Shown piece after piece: positions 39,122 through 48,255 of a stretch of 64,000 nt of DNA. The notes beneath the pieces were generated by a model, which saw only the letters and a program-made list of their open reading frames with translations, was not told the DNA's origin and searched no databases. How positions within the stretch are numbered: position 1 is the stretch's first letter; the number at the start of each line of letters is the position of its first letter. Made by a program: the position numbers and the translations under genes. The stretch lies in contig CALMYL010000029.1 of NCBI GenBank assembly GCA_937873695.1, positions 1 through 64,000 on the forward strand, written 5' to 3'. Source of the stretch: an uncultured Ignavibacteria bacterium. Its GTDB lineage: Bacteria; Bacteroidota; Ignavibacteria; Tepidaquicellales; OLB5.

Positions 39122-39449
39122 TCATTCCGATTTTATCATCACCAATATCATCTTAAAAGCAGTTGCTGCTTTAAGTGAATGCGGTTCACCCGCCGGCATT
39201 ACGATAGCCTTTCCGGCGCCCAGCGAATACTTCTTGCCTGAAATTGTTATTTCTGCCATCTGTTATCTGCACGAACGCGTCAAAAGGAGCGGTATGTTCG
39301 CTTAATCCTTCGCCTTTATCAAATGCGAACAGTGTAATATTACCGCTGCTCTTTTTCAGCAGAACTTTACTTACTACTGCACCTGACTGGTATTTAAGCA
39401 GCTCATTCAGATTCATACTTACTGTTTCAGATTCCCTGGTTTCTTTCAT
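39122..39449 (-). pseudogene. Cupin-domain protein, single-base frameshift
   Basis: The first frame (39449 down to about 39258) encodes a typical small cupin start: L-L-K-Y-Q-S-G-A-V-V-S-K and F-D-K-G-E-G-L-S-E-H-T-A-P-F-D-A-F. After T-D-G the expected sequence continues in another frame as A-E-I-T-I-S-G-K-K-Y-S-L-G-A-G, then M-P-A-G-E-P-H-S-L, to a stop at 39122. Loss of one base near 39255-39259 explains this. It is either a recent pseudogene or a sequencing error. Intact, it would be about 108 residues. Confidence 0.82.
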
Positions 39450-40457: not shown

Positions 40458-41420
40458 CTAAATAGCAATCACTACAGAGCCCTTTTTATGCCCTTTTTCA
40501 ACGTATTTATGAGCTTCCCTGATACTTTCGAGAGAATATGTTCTGTCAATTACCGGCTTCAATTTACCCGCCGCAATAAAAGAACTAATGGTTTCTAAGT
40601 TCTCTTTTCTTTCATTCGCAATTCCGCCCACAACTCTTTTGCCGGTGAACATATTAACTATCAGACCGCTCAAAATATCCGAGATGTCTGTATGAACAGA
40701 CCTTACATAGATACCACTTTTACCAAGTCTTCTTATGCTCCCCCAGAAAGGACTTTTGCCTACAGTATCAAATATGATATCAAATTCTGCATCTTGTTCA
40801 GTAAAATCGGTAACAGTATAATCAATAACATTATCTGCACCAAGTGATCTTACCAGGTCAATGTTCGCGGTACTGCAAACACCTGTTACTTCAGCGCCAA
40901 GGTATTTAGCAATTTGCACTGCGTAAACTCCTAACGCACCAGAAGCGCCATAGATCAAGATCCTGTTACCTTTGCTTAACCTGGCTTTTTCTTTTATAAA
41001 ATAATAGGAAGCCAATGCTCCAAAAGGAATTGATGCTGCCTGTTCGAAACTTAGCCCATCAGGAATAACTGCAATTGCAGAATCTTCTTTTAATTTTATG
41101 TACTCCGCATTCGTTCCGGAATCTAAACCGGCCGCTCCGAAAACTCTTTCTTTGACTTTGAAACTCCGTACTTTTTTACCGGTTAGCTCAACTTCACCGG
41201 CAAACTCATTGCCCGGTATCCGGATCCTTTTTGGTTTAAGAAATCCGTTAAAAAATCTAACAAGATAAGGATCAGCTTTTCTTAAATGAACGTCACCGGC
41301 GGTAACTGTTGCCGCTTTGACCCTTATGAGCAGTTCATTATCCTGAATTTCAAGTTTATCAACATTCCTGATCTCTAAAACTTCTGGTCCTCCGTACCTT
41401 TCAAAATAAGCAGCCTTCAT
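40458..41420 (-). CDS. NAD(P)-dependent quinone-oxidoreductase-like dehydrogenase
   Basis: 320 residues, medium-chain dehydrogenase fold without the zinc-binding cysteines. The GroES-like N-terminus contains R-I-P-G-N-E-F-A-G-E-V. The Rossmann motif is I-Y-G-A-S-G-A-L-G-V-Y-A-V-Q-I-A-K. The end K-G-H-K-K-G-S-V-V-I is typical. Members reduce quinones or activated alkenes. It follows the UPF0316 gene by 86 bp in the same direction, so it may be the distal gene of the opine/B12 operon, though this is uncertain. Confidence 0.88.
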   Translation of the reverse strand: MKAAYFERYGGPEVLEIRNVDKLEIQDNELLIRVKAATVTAGDVHLRKADPYLVRFFNGFLKPKRIRIPGNEFAGEVELTGKKVRSFKVKERVFGAAGLDSGTNAEYIKLKEDSAIAVIPDGLSFEQAASIPFGALASYYFIKEKARLSKGNRILIYGASGALGVYAVQIAKYLGAEVTGVCSTANIDLVRSLGADNVIDYTVTDFTEQDAEFDIIFDTVGKSPFWGSIRRLGKSGIYVRSVHTDISDILSGLIVNMFTGKRVVGGIANERKENLETISSFIAAGKLKPVIDRTYSLESIREAHKYVEKGHKKGSVVIAI

Positions 41421-41506
41421 TGTTGTTTCTCCTCAATTAAACTCTCAATTATTGTTAAAGCTATTCTCCCTAAAAACAGATCATAATAAAAAACAATTAA
41501 AGTTAA

Positions 41507-42028
41507 TTACTTTCTTGAATGGATAAAACCTCTATAAGGTATAACCGACTGCACTGAGATAAATGCTGCGGGATCAATCTTCTCTATAGTCTTAATTATC
41601 TCAGATCTTCGTTTAGCCATAACAATCAGAACCAGAACGGCTACACCGCTTCTTGCCCCTTCGCCGGGTACAATTGTTACGCCAATTTTAAGGGATCTCA
41701 GTTTGTCAGCAATAGCATCTGTATGGTATTTTGAGATCACATAAAGCTGAAGATATCCGGTACCAAATTTGTTCTCAATTGAAACTCCGGCAATAGTACC
41801 TAAAGCAAACCCCGCGGAATAGCCCAGAATGTTCCATGTATTATCAAGGTTCTGCATTATATATCTCATAGCAGCTATCCATATCATTACTTCAATAAAT
41901 CCATATACGGCGGCACGGTATTTATGTCCTTTAACAACATTCAGCATCCTTAACGTACCCAAAGATACATCAATGATCCTGGCACACATAATAAAGAACA
42001 TACCTGCCGAAATACTCAGTATGTTCAT
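41507..42028 (-). CDS. UPF0316 (DUF2179-type) membrane protein
   Basis: 173 residues. Three N-terminal membrane helices contain the family pattern R-I-I-D-V-S-L-G-T-L-R and the G-T-I-A-G-V-S-I-E loop. A cytoplasmic domain follows (about 95-173) with V-P-G-E-G-A-R-S-G-V-A-V-L. It starts 12 bp after the asparagine-synthase-like gene, so it is cotranscribed. The family has no known function; a transport or sensing role for the cluster product is possible. Confidence 0.85.
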   Translation of the reverse strand: MNILSISAGMFFIMCARIIDVSLGTLRMLNVVKGHKYRAAVYGFIEVMIWIAAMRYIMQNLDNTWNILGYSAGFALGTIAGVSIENKFGTGYLQLYVISKYHTDAIADKLRSLKIGVTIVPGEGARSGVAVLVLIVMAKRRSEIIKTIEKIDPAAFISVQSVIPYRGFIHSRK

Positions 42029-42040
42029 TGTTTTACCCTT

Positions 42041-43522
42041 CTAAAAATCCGCTGTTACACCGGCAATAAGTTTATCTTCGCAAAATGAAAAATGCTCTTT
42101 ATAAATTCTATAAAAATAAAGCTCATCTTTACCTCTTATATTATGCGGAGCCTGTGAGCTTTCATTAAGAAATTCCTGATCACTAATTTCAGATTCAGCA
42201 ATCTTCCTGAATAATTCTTCGGCACCTGAGCCTTCTGAAAATTTCAGTTTATCTCTCCACAATATTTCTTCAGGCAAATAGTCCTTAAACGCCTTCCTGA
42301 GCAGGTATTTTTCCATCTTATTATCTCCTGCACATCTTAATTTTATCGGAATGCTGTGAGCAAATTCAACAAACTCATGATCTAGGAACGGAACCCGTGC
42401 CTCTATAGAATGAGCCATAGTCATCCTGTCTGTTCTTTGAAGATTAACATTGTGCAAAGATCTTGTAAGCCTTATGAGTTCATCATTAAGCACACCGGAA
42501 CATTTCATATTTTTAAGATAATGATACCCGCTGAAAAGTTCATCAGCTCCTTCACCTGTAAGTACAACTTTTATCTTTCCTTTTGCAGCCCTGGCTACAA
42601 AATAATTAGGCAGGGCGCTTCTTACCAGCGGCGCGTCAAATGATTCAAGGTAATATATCACATCGTGAATTGAATTCCGCATTTCCTTTTCAGTATATAT
42701 ATATTCATAGTGTTTTGAATTCAGAAATTCCGCGACCTTTCTGGCGGCCATAAGATCATCACTACCTTCAGTACCAACAGCGAATGTGTGCAGTTTATCA
42801 ACATACGGATTCATTAGTGCTGCAATAATGCTGCTGTCAAGTCCGCCACTGAGAAAAATTCCAACAGGAACGTCTGAAACAAGCCTGCGTTTGACAGAAA
42901 CGAATAATTTCTGGCGGATCATTGAACAAATTTCATTTTCATCTCTAAGGAAAGGACTTTCATACGAATCTATAGAATAGTACTGATGAAACCCGGTTAT
43001 ATTCGAGTAATAATACCCCGGGGGAAACTCGCTGATATCTTCAAAACCCTCAAGGGATTTGATCTCTGAAGCAAAAGCCATAACTCCGTTCTTGCTTCCA
43101 AAGTAAAGAGGTTTAATTCCTATTCTGTCCCTTGCGGCAAAAATGTTACCGCTGTCATTTATTACAAAAGCGAACATTCCGTTCAAAAGTTTCAAACAAT
43201 CATAACCGAATTCTTCAAACAGATGAAGCAGTACTTCACTGTCAGAGTCAGTCTTAAATTCATGATTACCGAGAAATTCCTTTCTTAGTTCTTTGTAATT
43301 ATAGATCTCTCCGTTACAAACAATACATTTATCACCGGTTTCATTATAAATAGGCTGTACTCCGCCTTTAAGATCAATTATAGACAGCCTGGTATGTCCA
43401 AGAATTATTCCCCTGCCGGAAAAATAGCCATACTCATCCGGCCCTCTGTGTTTTAACTTCCGGGTCATACTGTATATATCAACCGGATCATTGGTTCCAT
43501 ATAAAGCTGTTATTCCGCACAT
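42041..43522 (-). CDS. Asparagine-synthase-like glutamine amidotransferase
   Basis: 493 residues. The class II glutaminase has the N-terminal Cys2 nucleophile (M-C-G-I-T), R-G-P-D-E and C-N-G-E-I-Y-N. The synthetase half has the ATP pyrophosphatase loop S-G-G-L-D-S-S (225-231) and L-T-G-E-G-A-D-E-L-F-S-G-Y. All catalytic residues appear present. It is shorter than E. coli AsnB (554) and lies in an operon with an opine-type dehydrogenase and a B12 enzyme, so it may amidate a pathway intermediate rather than aspartate. Confidence 0.88.
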   Translation of the reverse strand: MCGITALYGTNDPVDIYSMTRKLKHRGPDEYGYFSGRGIILGHTRLSIIDLKGGVQPIYNETGDKCIVCNGEIYNYKELRKEFLGNHEFKTDSDSEVLLHLFEEFGYDCLKLLNGMFAFVINDSGNIFAARDRIGIKPLYFGSKNGVMAFASEIKSLEGFEDISEFPPGYYYSNITGFHQYYSIDSYESPFLRDENEICSMIRQKLFVSVKRRLVSDVPVGIFLSGGLDSSIIAALMNPYVDKLHTFAVGTEGSDDLMAARKVAEFLNSKHYEYIYTEKEMRNSIHDVIYYLESFDAPLVRSALPNYFVARAAKGKIKVVLTGEGADELFSGYHYLKNMKCSGVLNDELIRLTRSLHNVNLQRTDRMTMAHSIEARVPFLDHEFVEFAHSIPIKLRCAGDNKMEKYLLRKAFKDYLPEEILWRDKLKFSEGSGAEELFRKIAESEISDQEFLNESSQAPHNIRGKDELYFYRIYKEHFSFCEDKLIAGVTADF

Positions 43523-43554
43523 GTTATCAGTTCCTTTCTGTTATTTAAATGGAT

Positions 43555-45207
43555 TTATAACTTCCCTTTATCGTTTAATATTTTTTCAGTCCTCTCTTTT
43601 TCCTTTATTATTCTGCCTGAATTCTCTTCAACGGCATACCATGCTCCATCAATAAGGCTGGTGGTAATTTCACCGCAAAGGTGGCTGTTACCCCTGAAAT
43701 GTGGCGCATCCAGTAATCCGTGCTTTATAGCCTTTGCAATAACATTGGCATCACCTAGAGGGTCATCTGAAACATTACCCCCGTATATTTTCAAGGCTTC
43801 CAGCAAAATGTGAGCTTCTTCAAGCAGTTCTTCGCGCCTTTTTTTCACCGATTCATCATTTTTCATATCCGGCAGCCCATCAAGGCAGTTATGCAGAACG
43901 CCATGGGCAATATTACAGCTTTCTATCAGCTCACCCGGAAAAGTTGCATGATCCCCTTCGCTGAATCCCACTACATGCAGTATGTGCGGCTGCAATGCAA
44001 GGCTCATTGCAATTGATGCTGCAAGCTGTCCTTTTGCAATTGCGGGCACAGGGAAAAAATGCGCGATACCGGCCCTAACTTCTCTGTATACCTTAAAATC
44101 ATTGTCTTCAAGAGATTCAAGCAAGTTCCTCTTTGCTGTCATTTTGGCAATATCCATAACAGGGTACGTGCCAGGCGGAGTGTTAAACATAAACTGGGAT
44201 ACATAATTTTTCACTCCCATCTTTTTGGCGTTATATGCTGCAAGATAGCTCATAACAACTGCCAGTGAATCATGTGCGTCTCTAAGACTCCACTGGTGTG
44301 ACTCATTTACTTCTACAGGTATGTTCTTATCAGCATACCACTTCATAACGTTTCTATTTTCTGTGATAGCATCATATAAACTCCGTTCTGATCTGCCGTC
44401 TATCACACTGTACCAGCACAGCGGAATTGCAGCCCATGCATTATTTATTGTTTCAACGCTCATTTCAGCCCATTTCAGAAGGTCATTAGTGCCGCTGTAA
44501 CAGCGCATAAGCGGATAGTTGCCGCACCTGGATGCTTCGTAAATTGCCTTCAGGTGTCCGGGTATTCTGACTGGTACCCCGCCGGCTCCATCCATTGCCG
44601 GATTCATTTCAGCCTGGTTAAAGAAGAATTCCTGTGCATTCTGGTCAGTCCCAAGTGAAAGCACATCAAGTACTTCTGCTTCGGCGATCTCTTTAGCTCC
44701 TTTTATGGTTTCTTCTACATTGGGTCTGCCAAAGTGATGCCGCAGCAGCGGGTACGGATATTTTTTATTTATCCTGCCAATAAGCGTATTTTCCTGGGAT
44801 ATATCTTCAGCTTTGTTATCGCTGCCCCTAAGAAATGCTTTGATTTCTTTTATTGATTCAGTGCCGGCAAAAACCTTTTCAAATAACCCCGAGCTTTCTG
44901 CAGCTTTTGCCGCAGGCGGAGTTCCGCCGAAAATAAACTTTATTCCGGCTAAGTTAAATTGTTTGATCTTCTTTTTCAGCTCTTCAAATAACAGCGCTGC
45001 AACTTCCGGCGTAAGCCGGTAACTTACAGCGGCAACCTGGGGTTTCTGCTTAATGATCTCATCTATGAACCTGTTTACCGGAACAGCAGGACCTAATGAA
45101 ATCGTCCTGAAGCCTTCAGATTCCGCCAGCTTAAGAAAATGATGTAACCCGCCGATATGTACACAGCTGCCTAATGCAGCACCAAGGATCAATTTTTCTT
45201 TCACCAT
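43555..45207 (-). CDS. B12-dependent mutase-like protein (B12 domain fused to a glutamate-mutase-E-like barrel)
   Basis: 550 residues. An N-terminal Rossmann-like cobalamin domain (about 5-125) has C15-x-H17-x2-G20 where the family has D-x-H-x2-G, followed by V-S-Y-R-L and F-G-G-T-P. The rest resembles glutamate mutase E: R-C-Y-S-G-T-N-D around Arg235 corresponds to the substrate-binding R-H-G-T-P-D region, and W-Y-A-D-K-N-I-P-V-E-V-N to a following strand. Glutamate mutase usually has separate S and E subunits; here they seem fused. It probably rearranges an amino-acid-like substrate, but a methyl-transfer role is not excluded. Confidence 0.65.
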   Translation of the reverse strand: MVKEKLILGAALGSCVHIGGLHHFLKLAESEGFRTISLGPAVPVNRFIDEIIKQKPQVAAVSYRLTPEVAALLFEELKKKIKQFNLAGIKFIFGGTPPAAKAAESSGLFEKVFAGTESIKEIKAFLRGSDNKAEDISQENTLIGRINKKYPYPLLRHHFGRPNVEETIKGAKEIAEAEVLDVLSLGTDQNAQEFFFNQAEMNPAMDGAGGVPVRIPGHLKAIYEASRCGNYPLMRCYSGTNDLLKWAEMSVETINNAWAAIPLCWYSVIDGRSERSLYDAITENRNVMKWYADKNIPVEVNESHQWSLRDAHDSLAVVMSYLAAYNAKKMGVKNYVSQFMFNTPPGTYPVMDIAKMTAKRNLLESLEDNDFKVYREVRAGIAHFFPVPAIAKGQLAASIAMSLALQPHILHVVGFSEGDHATFPGELIESCNIAHGVLHNCLDGLPDMKNDESVKKRREELLEEAHILLEALKIYGGNVSDDPLGDANVIAKAIKHGLLDAPHFRGNSHLCGEITTSLIDGAWYAVEENSGRIIKEKERTEKILNDKGKL

Positions 45208-45266
45208 TTTTATCCTAATTTATTTCCTAAACTTTTTTACTTCGTGAACTTATTTTATTTCTATCT

Positions 45267-46382
45267 TTATTTATTAATATCTGCCTGCCCTATAGAAAGC
45301 AGCCTAAGTTCCTTAAGGCTCATATCCGCAATTCCCAGTTTTTCCACTGTTCTTCCCGTTTCAAAATAATTTATACCATTAAGAGAAGAAGCAAGGTAGA
45401 TAAGTGAATTTATTGCCGGAGTATCTACTTTGAATTTTTTTCCCAAAGAAGCTATAGGTACAAGACTCTCCGGAACATCTTCATTTAAGTATCTCATATC
45501 AAGAGTTGGTGGAGCCATTATTCCCCTATACCCGGGGTTAGAATGAACCGCTTCGTAAAGATCTTTGCCAACAGCTCCATAAGCAAGGTACAGCCATTCC
45601 CTTGCGGTCATTGCACGGATTCCAAGAGCAGCAGCAACCGCAACGCGCTCCTTATCAACTTCTTCAAGCACCCGGGCAATAGAGCGTGTTATTCCTTCAA
45701 CGTAAAACTGGAACTCATTAATATCCTCTATCCAGCCGGCGTTTAGAATACTTATTGCCGGGTGAAATACTGCTCCAATGTTATCGAAACTGGTCTTGAA
45801 AATATTATCACCGGGTACAAATTCATTATATGCCGGTTTAAGCTTTTCTATCACAATAGGAATTTTATGCGCCCTCACAGAGGCTATAGGAATTGAATTT
45901 TTGACACGGAAAATATGAACATGTCCGGGTCCAACAACTCTTGAAGCATAGAGAAATGTCTGCGCTTCGGCAATGATAACATCAGCTTTCACGTTTTGTC
46001 TTATCAGGATCTGTTTAAATTCAAGAGCTCCGAATGTTCTGCCGGGATGCAGTATAACTATCTGGCCATCACGCAAATGTGGCGCGCATTTTTCCGCCAT
46101 AAACCTGTGCGCTGTTGCAGGAACAACAACCATTATTATATCTGCGCCATCCAAAGCCTGTTTAATATCGGTTGTTGCAATTTTAATGATCCCGTCGCCT
46201 TCAATTTCACCATCAAGCTTTATCAAGCCGGTAGCTTTTATTCCCCATAATCTTTCTTCACTTCTGTTGAAAAGATTAACAGTAAAACCCATTAATGCCA
46301 GATGGCCTGCCATTGCCAGTCCGCCATGACCTGCCCCCAGAACCGCGAATTTTGGTTTTGTATTTCCGCTTGTTTGTTTCAA
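45267..46382 (-). CDS. Octopine/opine-type dehydrogenase
   Basis: 371 residues from a TTG start with a strong AGGAGG site 8 bp before it. The N-terminal NAD(P) fold has G-A-G-H-G-G (16-21). The C-terminal octopine-dehydrogenase domain has the catalytic His207 in D-N-I-G-A-V-F-H-P-A. The family reductively joins an amino acid to an alpha-keto acid, or oxidises such secondary amines. It is the first gene of the operon with the B12 enzyme and the amidotransferase. The 426-bp region upstream (46383-46808) shows no gene and should hold the operon promoter. Confidence 0.88.
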   Translation of the reverse strand: MKQTSGNTKPKFAVLGAGHGGLAMAGHLALMGFTVNLFNRSEERLWGIKATGLIKLDGEIEGDGIIKIATTDIKQALDGADIIMVVVPATAHRFMAEKCAPHLRDGQIVILHPGRTFGALEFKQILIRQNVKADVIIAEAQTFLYASRVVGPGHVHIFRVKNSIPIASVRAHKIPIVIEKLKPAYNEFVPGDNIFKTSFDNIGAVFHPAISILNAGWIEDINEFQFYVEGITRSIARVLEEVDKERVAVAAALGIRAMTAREWLYLAYGAVGKDLYEAVHSNPGYRGIMAPPTLDMRYLNEDVPESLVPIASLGKKFKVDTPAINSLIYLASSLNGINYFETGRTVEKLGIADMSLKELRLLSIGQADINK

Positions 46383-47807: not shown

Positions 47808-47824
47808 ATTCATCGACCTTTCTT

Positions 47825-48070
47825 TAACCCTGTTTCCCAAACTCCAGTTTGGGAACAACATATTCCGTCTCCGCAGAGCCTCCTGTAAGGGACTCCAACG
47901 TCTCCGCAGAGTCTCCTGTAAGGGACTCTGCCGAAACATCAAAATCAATTCGAGCAATTCGTATTAACCCTGTTTCCCAAACTCCAGTTTGGGAAACAAC
48001 ATATTCCGTCTTCGCTGAGTCTTCTGTAAGGACTCTGCGACAATTCCAAAACAAATTCGTGTAATTAGTG
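47825..48070. repeat. Two-unit dispersed repeat with two hairpin types
   Basis: Unit A (TAACCCTGTTTCCCAAACTC...TTCCGTCT) occurs at 47825-47870 and 47965-48010 and forms a CCCAAACT-CC-AGTTTGGG hairpin. Unit B (GCAGAGTC-TCCTGTAAG-GGACTCTGC, also a hairpin) occurs about three times and again near 39040. Each block ends in a sequence like CAATTCGTGTAATTAGTGGTTA. The rest of the 466-bp gap before katG has no gene. Confidence 0.85.
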
Positions 48071-48255
48071 GTTATTCTTTTCTGTATATCCCCTTCTGAA
48101 ACGATAATCACCCGCAAACCGTTATTATTTTTACCTTTAATATTTTCAATTAAACAATTAATTTTAACATCCAATTTCACAAAATTCAACATTCATTTAG
48201 TTCAACAGCGGCAAGCTGTTAATCTGCTATTTTATAAATTGAAAATAATCTCTAA

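Follow-up and report, generated by a model that had tools for sequence, protein, structure and literature searches.

Crown galls, metallophores and invertebrate muscle are the settings in which opine chemistry has been described to date. To our knowledge, few adenosylcobalamin (AdoCbl)-dependent mutase reactions have been described, and a new mutase family with an obligate partner would be rare. Genes for both kinds of enzyme lie side by side in the DNA of an uncultured Ignavibacteria bacterium (GenBank assembly GCA_937873695.1, contig CALMYL010000029.1, positions 1 to 64,000; this whole stretch of 64,000 nucleotides is referred to as the window). Here an opine dehydrogenase (ODH) gene is followed by a gene for a fused B12-dependent mutase and a gene for an AsnB-like amidotransferase.

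Described counterparts exist for each of these enzymes. Glutamate mutase (MutS/MutE, EC 5.4.99.1; PDB 1cb7/6h9e) shares with the window's mutase the two-domain plan, the predicted fold, the cobalamin-ligating His and a putative counterpart of Glu330, whereas the window's enzyme is a single fused chain of ~14% identity that is always paired with an ODH. The ornithine 4,5- and lysine 5,6-aminomutases (OraE, KamDE) have in common with it the predicted barrel fold (Z 27-30), AdoCbl and a conserved ribose Glu. Glu330 of glutamate mutase and Glu338 of ornithine aminomutase contact the adenosyl ribose, and the pyridoxal phosphate (PLP) lysine of the aminomutases sits in the Rossmann domain (PMC3958899). 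Among ODHs, six metagenomic enzymes (mODHs) with Arg for Ala111 and Gly for Asn198 prefer L-Asp/L-Glu with pyruvate, and double mutants of the R111/G198 pair swap L-Phe and L-Asp specificity (PMC10787698). The module ODH shares with these mODHs the PF02317 fold, the His/Asp dyad, and Arg111 and Gly198 (ArODH numbering); it is tied to a mutase gene, whereas the same paper, in the parts consulted, reports no genomic partner for the mODHs. Compared with E. coli AsnB and human asparagine synthetase (ASNS), the window's AsnB-like protein has both domains and the catalytic residues, and the module enzymes differ in having Asn or Ala at the position of ASNS Asp-400, a shorter C-terminus, a separate clade and, in most relatives, a lost glutaminase. 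ASNS Asp-400 belongs to a modelled ammonium pocket (PMC6748925).

The window's ODH gene (371 amino acids, TTG start; 45267-46382, minus strand) is separated by 59 bp from the mutase gene (550 amino acids; 43555-45207, minus strand), which lies 32 bp ahead of the AsnB-like gene (493 amino acids; 42041-43522, minus strand). Using whole-genome searches, a wider set of loci was collected from Bacteroidota in the broad sense of the genome set, several of them from metagenome-assembled genomes (MAGs). The mutase was found in 11 of the 391 genomes of the class and in 9 of the 393 genomes of a Bacteroidota order. PF02317 exceeded its family cut-off in 11 of the 391 class genomes, a set identical to that of the mutase carriers, and neither gene occurred alone. 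If the two genes were independent, the chance of identical sets would be ~10^-21, phylogeny being ignored in this figure. Since the carriers of the ODH gene and those of the B12 gene are the same 11 genomes out of 391, the linkage of the two genes is not a matter of chance. The pair was adjacent and on the same strand in all 18 complete loci of the wider phylum (overlapping in 8), with ODH preceding the mutase in 16 of the 18; in partial loci the missing neighbour had been removed by the contig end. The clustering that an earlier note, made from the window's sequence alone, had pointed out is thus kept in relatives as far as this pair is concerned.

Carriers were spread over several families (f1, f4, f5, f13 and f59). 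Within the window's own genus the pair was patchy, being present in 3 drawn genomes and absent from at least 10, and absences at this level show that the pair was gained or lost more than once. A separate pattern scan of GTDB species genomes yielded just three close loci because exact peptide patterns were used: the same gene set was found in Chlorobi bacterium OLB5 (91% identity of the B12 protein), in a Bacteroidota MAG and in another MAG, the last of which had lost the ODH end at a contig edge. Relatives of the mutase were found neither in plasmid records, with two homologues as queries, nor in viral contigs, with the mutase alignment as query.

The ODH and mutase trees resolved the same three groups, namely clades A, B and C. 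Clade A comprised the trio loci, in which the third gene is of the AsnB type; this gene followed the B12 gene in every clade A locus with enough contig, covering Ignavibacteria and one Bacteroidota MAG. Clade B consisted mainly of capsule/exopolysaccharide-type loci, and clade C of two loci with the B12 gene ahead of ODH. The B12, ODH and AsnB trees were concordant on the main clades and discordant inside clade A, where support was low. The earlier note's idea of an undescribed module of ODH, B12 mutase and AsnB-like enzyme is supported by these results, and literature searches, with most subscription literature outside their coverage, found no paper joining these genes. The individual folds are known; what appears undescribed is the family of mutases, its association with ODH and the pathway that follows from it.

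In Pfam, the B12 protein matched the B12-binding domain PF02310 alone, and this match fell just short of the cut-off (E 4e-7). Its C-terminal part (residues 137-550; 414 residues) had no meaningful Pfam match at E up to 10, glutamate mutase epsilon included. NCBIfam gave just weak matches, to the B12-binding domain, and a PDB sequence search with the mutase profile found cobalamin domains and not the barrel. A structure model was built from a 20-sequence alignment (mean pLDDT 87.3, pTM 0.76). The top Foldseek match of this model was the glutamate mutase epsilon chain 6h9e_B (1.6e-15), followed by the ornithine and lysine aminomutases and then by acyl-CoA mutases. A second aligner, VIA, gave Z 34.0 against 6h9e_B (376 residues aligned, rmsd 3.0 A), 30.4 against lysine 5,6-aminomutase and ~22 against methylmalonyl-CoA mutase. 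Together, the Foldseek and VIA matches indicate that the B12 protein, as modelled, adopts the fold of AdoCbl mutases and carries the cobalamin domain as an N-terminal fusion. The fused glutamate-mutase-like enzyme of the earlier note is in this way borne out by a likeness that is invisible to Pfam. The predicted cobalamin-binding Rossmann domain spans residues 1-130 (44818-45207, minus strand), and the glutamate-mutase-epsilon-like TIM barrel with the C-terminal part spans residues ~137-542 (43582-44799, minus strand).

Over clades A-C, 61 residues were invariant among 20 mutases. In the cobalamin motif DxHxxG, His17 (45157-45159, minus strand), the presumed lower ligand of cobalamin, and Gly20 were invariant in 20 of 20; in place of the Asp, clades A and C had Cys, whereas DxH was found in the clade B rows. 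The invariant Glu417 (43957-43959, minus strand), a predicted ribose contact, fell on Glu330 of glutamate mutase in a profile alignment that was near end-to-end and statistically weak. The Rossmann domain (residues 1-130 of the 20-member alignment) contained no conserved Lys, which distinguishes the module mutase from OraE and KamDE, where a lysine in this domain serves PLP. A CobA/BtuR-type ATP:corrinoid adenosyltransferase, to make AdoCbl, was found in the window genome; a PduO-type adenosyltransferase was not found in that genome.

The ODH matched PF02317 with an E value of 4e-44, in agreement with the enzyme joining amino and keto acids that had been read from the window earlier. Its nearest solved relative was ArODH 1bg6 (E 1e-71), with an alignment of nearly full length. 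The two-domain fold of PF02317 with the catalytic His-Asp and Trp was present: His207 (45762-45764, minus strand) and Asp243 were invariant in the 20 ODHs of the module loci, and Trp263 was invariant as well. Arg115 (46038-46040, minus strand) and Gly203 (45774-45776, minus strand) correspond to the R111/G198 pair in ArODH numbering. Both residues occurred in 20 of 20 ODHs of module loci, one of which does not adjoin a mutase (the first copy at L096), and in none of seven controls (ArODH and six unlinked plasmid ODHs; a Burkholderia ODH, L173, which gave no clean ORF, was left out of this count). From this Arg/Gly signature an acidic amino donor is predicted. The L096 locus (L096:3444-9505), which is of the polysaccharide type, holds two ODH genes; the second alone adjoins the mutase, and both carry the acidic signature.

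The AsnB-like adenylating amidotransferase matched PF00733 (Asn_synthase) at 1e-78 and GATase_7 at 3e-41. In the window protein the class II amidotransferase motifs MCGI, RLSIIDL, NGEIYN and SDSE were intact, as was the glutaminase Cys2 (43517-43519, minus strand). The earlier description of intact motifs therefore holds for the window and fails for most relatives, in which the glutaminase half is degenerate. At 8 of 12 loci the protein started with M[AST].I instead of MCGI, and Cys2, the glutaminase motifs and ~50-60 residues of the glutaminase domain were lost; this degenerate version occupied the same slot in unrelated lineages. The AsnBs of trio loci grouped together and were separated from ordinary AsnBs (SH-aLRT 92). 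At the position of ASNS Asp-400 the window protein has Asn (Asn360; 42443-42445, minus strand), and all 13 members of the clade have Asn or Ala. The ordinary short AsnBs with a residue aligned at this site all had Asp (row L151, which was mis-extracted, is left out of this comparison). Equivalents of the catalytic ASNS residues Glu364, Asp367 and Lys466 were kept in the clade. The change at Asp-400 would be expected if the substrate amine carried an extra group, i.e., if it were N-substituted.

Two further Asn_synthase genes were present in the window genome, so that the organism has asparagine synthetases besides the AsnB-like enzyme, which answers a doubt raised in the earlier note. In seven genus-mates without the ODH-B12 pair this AsnB was absent, and AsnBs of the ~610 and/or ~650 amino acid types were retained. 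Because the genome has two other Asn_synthase genes and the seven pair-less genus-mates hold only those types, the AsnB-like enzyme is judged not to be the housekeeping asparagine synthetase. Separately, a second short AsnB paralogue starting with MSGLLA or MGGILA and lacking Cys2 was observed beside an ordinary AsnB at three Bacteroidota loci (L134, L135 and L147; genomes G025, G021 and G170). In these paralogues, which fall in a clade distinct from that of the module AsnB, the glutaminase cysteine was lost a further time.

The reading we prefer, tentatively and short of calling it probable, is a pathway of three steps that ends in an amide derived from an opine: an acidic opine is made, its skeleton is rearranged with AdoCbl and a carboxylate is activated to an amide. 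Its in silico basis consists of the linkage, the fold, the cofactor residues, the ODH signature and the AsnB clade, from which we infer the substrates, the order of steps and the product. In the first step, suggested by the residue signature, the ODH would reductively condense L-Glu or L-Asp with a 2-oxo acid. Pyruvate is the probable partner, and the product would then be an acidic amino acid bearing an N-(1-carboxyethyl) group. The fused AdoCbl enzyme would then carry out a radical carbon-skeleton rearrangement of the glutamate mutase type. Most conservatively, this would convert N-(1-carboxyethyl)-glutamate to N-(1-carboxyethyl)-3-methylaspartate, the substrate being an N-substituted and not a free amino acid. 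In the last step the AsnB-like enzyme would adenylate the distal, Asp-like (beta-) carboxylate and form the amide, with ammonia from glutamine in the window. Since the glutaminase site is lost in most relatives, the nucleophile there would be free ammonia or another amine.

It is somewhat doubtful, though a serious candidate, that the mutases form a new AdoCbl family acting on N-carboxyalkylated acidic amino acids (opines), one-to-one with ODH and feeding amide-forming enzymes. If this is true, B12 chemistry would gain a new reaction, and the products would be metabolites or glycan decorations of a new class. The module ties opine chemistry to B12 radical chemistry and makes acidic opines a testable substrate class. 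Its AsnB-like partner has been tuned repeatedly, and the loss of the glutaminase half in most loci offers a natural experiment in the change of nucleophile of amide-forming enzymes.

Several observations weigh against this pathway. Arg66, Arg100 and Arg149 are the residues that we take to be the substrate arginines (arginine claw) of glutamate mutase. In the same weak profile alignment, invariant His158 and Tyr237 of the module mutase stand at Arg66 and Arg149, and Arg100 falls in a gap region. Invariant Arg156 and Arg235 lie two residues off the Arg66 and Arg149 positions, and their nearness makes a basic mutase pocket plausible, one that would not be the same as that of glutamate mutase. The window's AsnB-like protein passed the AsnB equivalog profile NF006949 (573 bits vs. 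a cut-off of 499). Genome G425 carries a trio-type AsnB with UPF0316 and without ODH or mutase (L131:2198-4202), and the AsnB can therefore occur apart from the pair; AsnB and UPF0316 may be an independent unit in that genome's family. The residue signature is the one constraint on the keto acid of the ODH and on its predicted choice between Glu and Asp, and gene order is the one guide to the order of the first two steps. The capsule-type homologues may also make a different product.

Gene order bears directly on the alternative in which the mutase acts first, on free L-glutamate, giving (2S,3S)-3-methylaspartate that an Asp-preferring ODH then carboxyalkylates and the AsnB-like enzyme amidates to the same end product. 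Glutamate mutase is the closest fold, and the ODH signature is that of enzymes which prefer L-Asp over L-Glu (PMC10787698), 3-methylaspartate being Asp-like. This order of events is nevertheless unlikely: the three arginines of glutamate mutase are missing from the aligned positions of the weak alignment in a pocket that is otherwise strictly conserved, the barrel is not matched by the Pfam family of glutamate mutase epsilon, and the ODH gene comes first in 16 of 18 complete loci. The equivalog match and the G425 locus would also fit a coupling of ODH and mutase only, with an ordinary asparagine synthetase downstream by chance. The joint absence of the pair and this AsnB from the seven genus-mates speaks against such an accident, as do the two other AsnBs of the window genome, the separate clade with its change of the Asp pocket in 13 of 13 members, and the degenerate version found in the same slot in unrelated lineages; we regard it as improbable.

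A dead glutaminase half is known from beta-lactam and carbapenam synthetases, and the beta-lactam synthetase (bLS) substrate is an N-carboxyethyl amino acid, N2-(2-carboxyethyl)arginine. The AsnB-like enzymes of the relatives resemble these in their dead, shrunken glutaminase half, Cys2 and ~50-60 residues being gone at 8 of 12 loci, and in their presumed use of N-carboxyalkyl amino acids. In a clavam-like scheme the mutase would shift the opine nitrogen, from N-(1-carboxyethyl) to N-(2-carboxyethyl), and the AsnB-like enzyme would close a beta-lactam. All members of the AsnB clade retain the Glu of GEG.DE, as AsnB does, at the position where CarA has Tyr, the residue with which beta-lactam and carbapenam synthetases perform catalysis; beta-lactam closure is rated as very unlikely because this Tyr is absent. 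The module enzymes are also much closer to AsnB than to CarA or bLS, the window enzyme has an intact glutaminase, and a nitrogen shift without PLP, for which the mutase has no lysine, would be chemically hard. Since ODHs catalyse reversible reactions and glutamate fermentation is a known setting of glutamate mutase, the locus could be read as degradative, with the ODH oxidising an environmental opine and the mutase sending the acidic amino acid to fermentation, as in the methylaspartate pathway. In the loci read, no methylaspartase or opine transporter was recognised beside the pair, and a carboxylate-amine ligase was near it in most loci. Many clade B and C copies lay in capsule/exopolysaccharide-type loci. 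These ligases and capsule-type loci favour biosynthesis, and degradation appears highly improbable.

For clades B and C, the preferred pathway could end differently. An ATP-grasp-type ligase was in or near the operon at 6 of 8 clade B/C loci; in one case this was a Ddl-like enzyme, and an alanine racemase came next. In capsule-type loci such a ligase (once Ddl-type) would attach the product to an amine, for which an amino sugar is a candidate. Some O-antigens carry opines in amide linkage to their sugars, as in the alanopine-Qui4N O-antigen of Providencia alcalifaciens O35, where the opine is linked to an amino sugar (PMC10609480). A comparable role is conceivable for the capsule-type loci, with a predicted mutase step of which no counterpart is known in the Providencia system. 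By analogy, the neighbourhoods of clades B and C and the known opine-substituted O-antigens suggest that these clades have a role in surface glycans. The module may account for unusual amide-linked constituents of Bacteroidota surface glycans. At L092 (L092:10630-13083) an alanine-racemase-like gene and a gene for a radical SAM protein with a B12-binding domain adjoin the ODH-mutase-Ddl-like operon, which suggests that the product of this locus contains D-alanine.

Two more genes complete the interval 40458-46382: the UPF0316 membrane protein gene (DUF5698 and DUF2179; 41507-42028, minus strand), 12 bp beyond the AsnB-like gene, and a quinone-oxidoreductase-like gene of the medium-chain dehydrogenase (MDR) type (ADH_zinc_N_2; 40458-41420, minus strand), 86 bp further on. 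A check of the window's open reading frames (ORFs) agreed with the tight packing described earlier, all five being on the minus strand in close succession with gaps of 12-86 bp. The conserved unit excludes these last two genes. UPF0316 was kept in L002, L071 and L072 and, with AsnB alone, in G425 (L131), and was absent from the other trio loci. The membrane protein claimed for the cluster is therefore present, as an accessory of the window lineage only and not as a conserved member. The MDR gene, which had been offered as a possible cluster member, was found beside the module neither in the closest relatives (L002, L071 and L072) nor in any other locus; it was rejected as part of the module for this absence and is judged a neighbour outside it. 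Promoter- and terminator-like sites around the operon were at chance level only, and an Rfam scan near the operon gave no family at threshold, cobalamin riboswitch included.

Two minor observations were made elsewhere in the window. A 122-amino-acid ORF with an internal repeat (SLTGDSAETLESLTGGSAETEYVV) at 47824-48192 is probably no ordinary gene. A cupin-like gene at 39186-39449 shows an apparent frameshift: its second half encodes residues unrelated to those of the intact 109-amino-acid copy in L002, L071 and L072.

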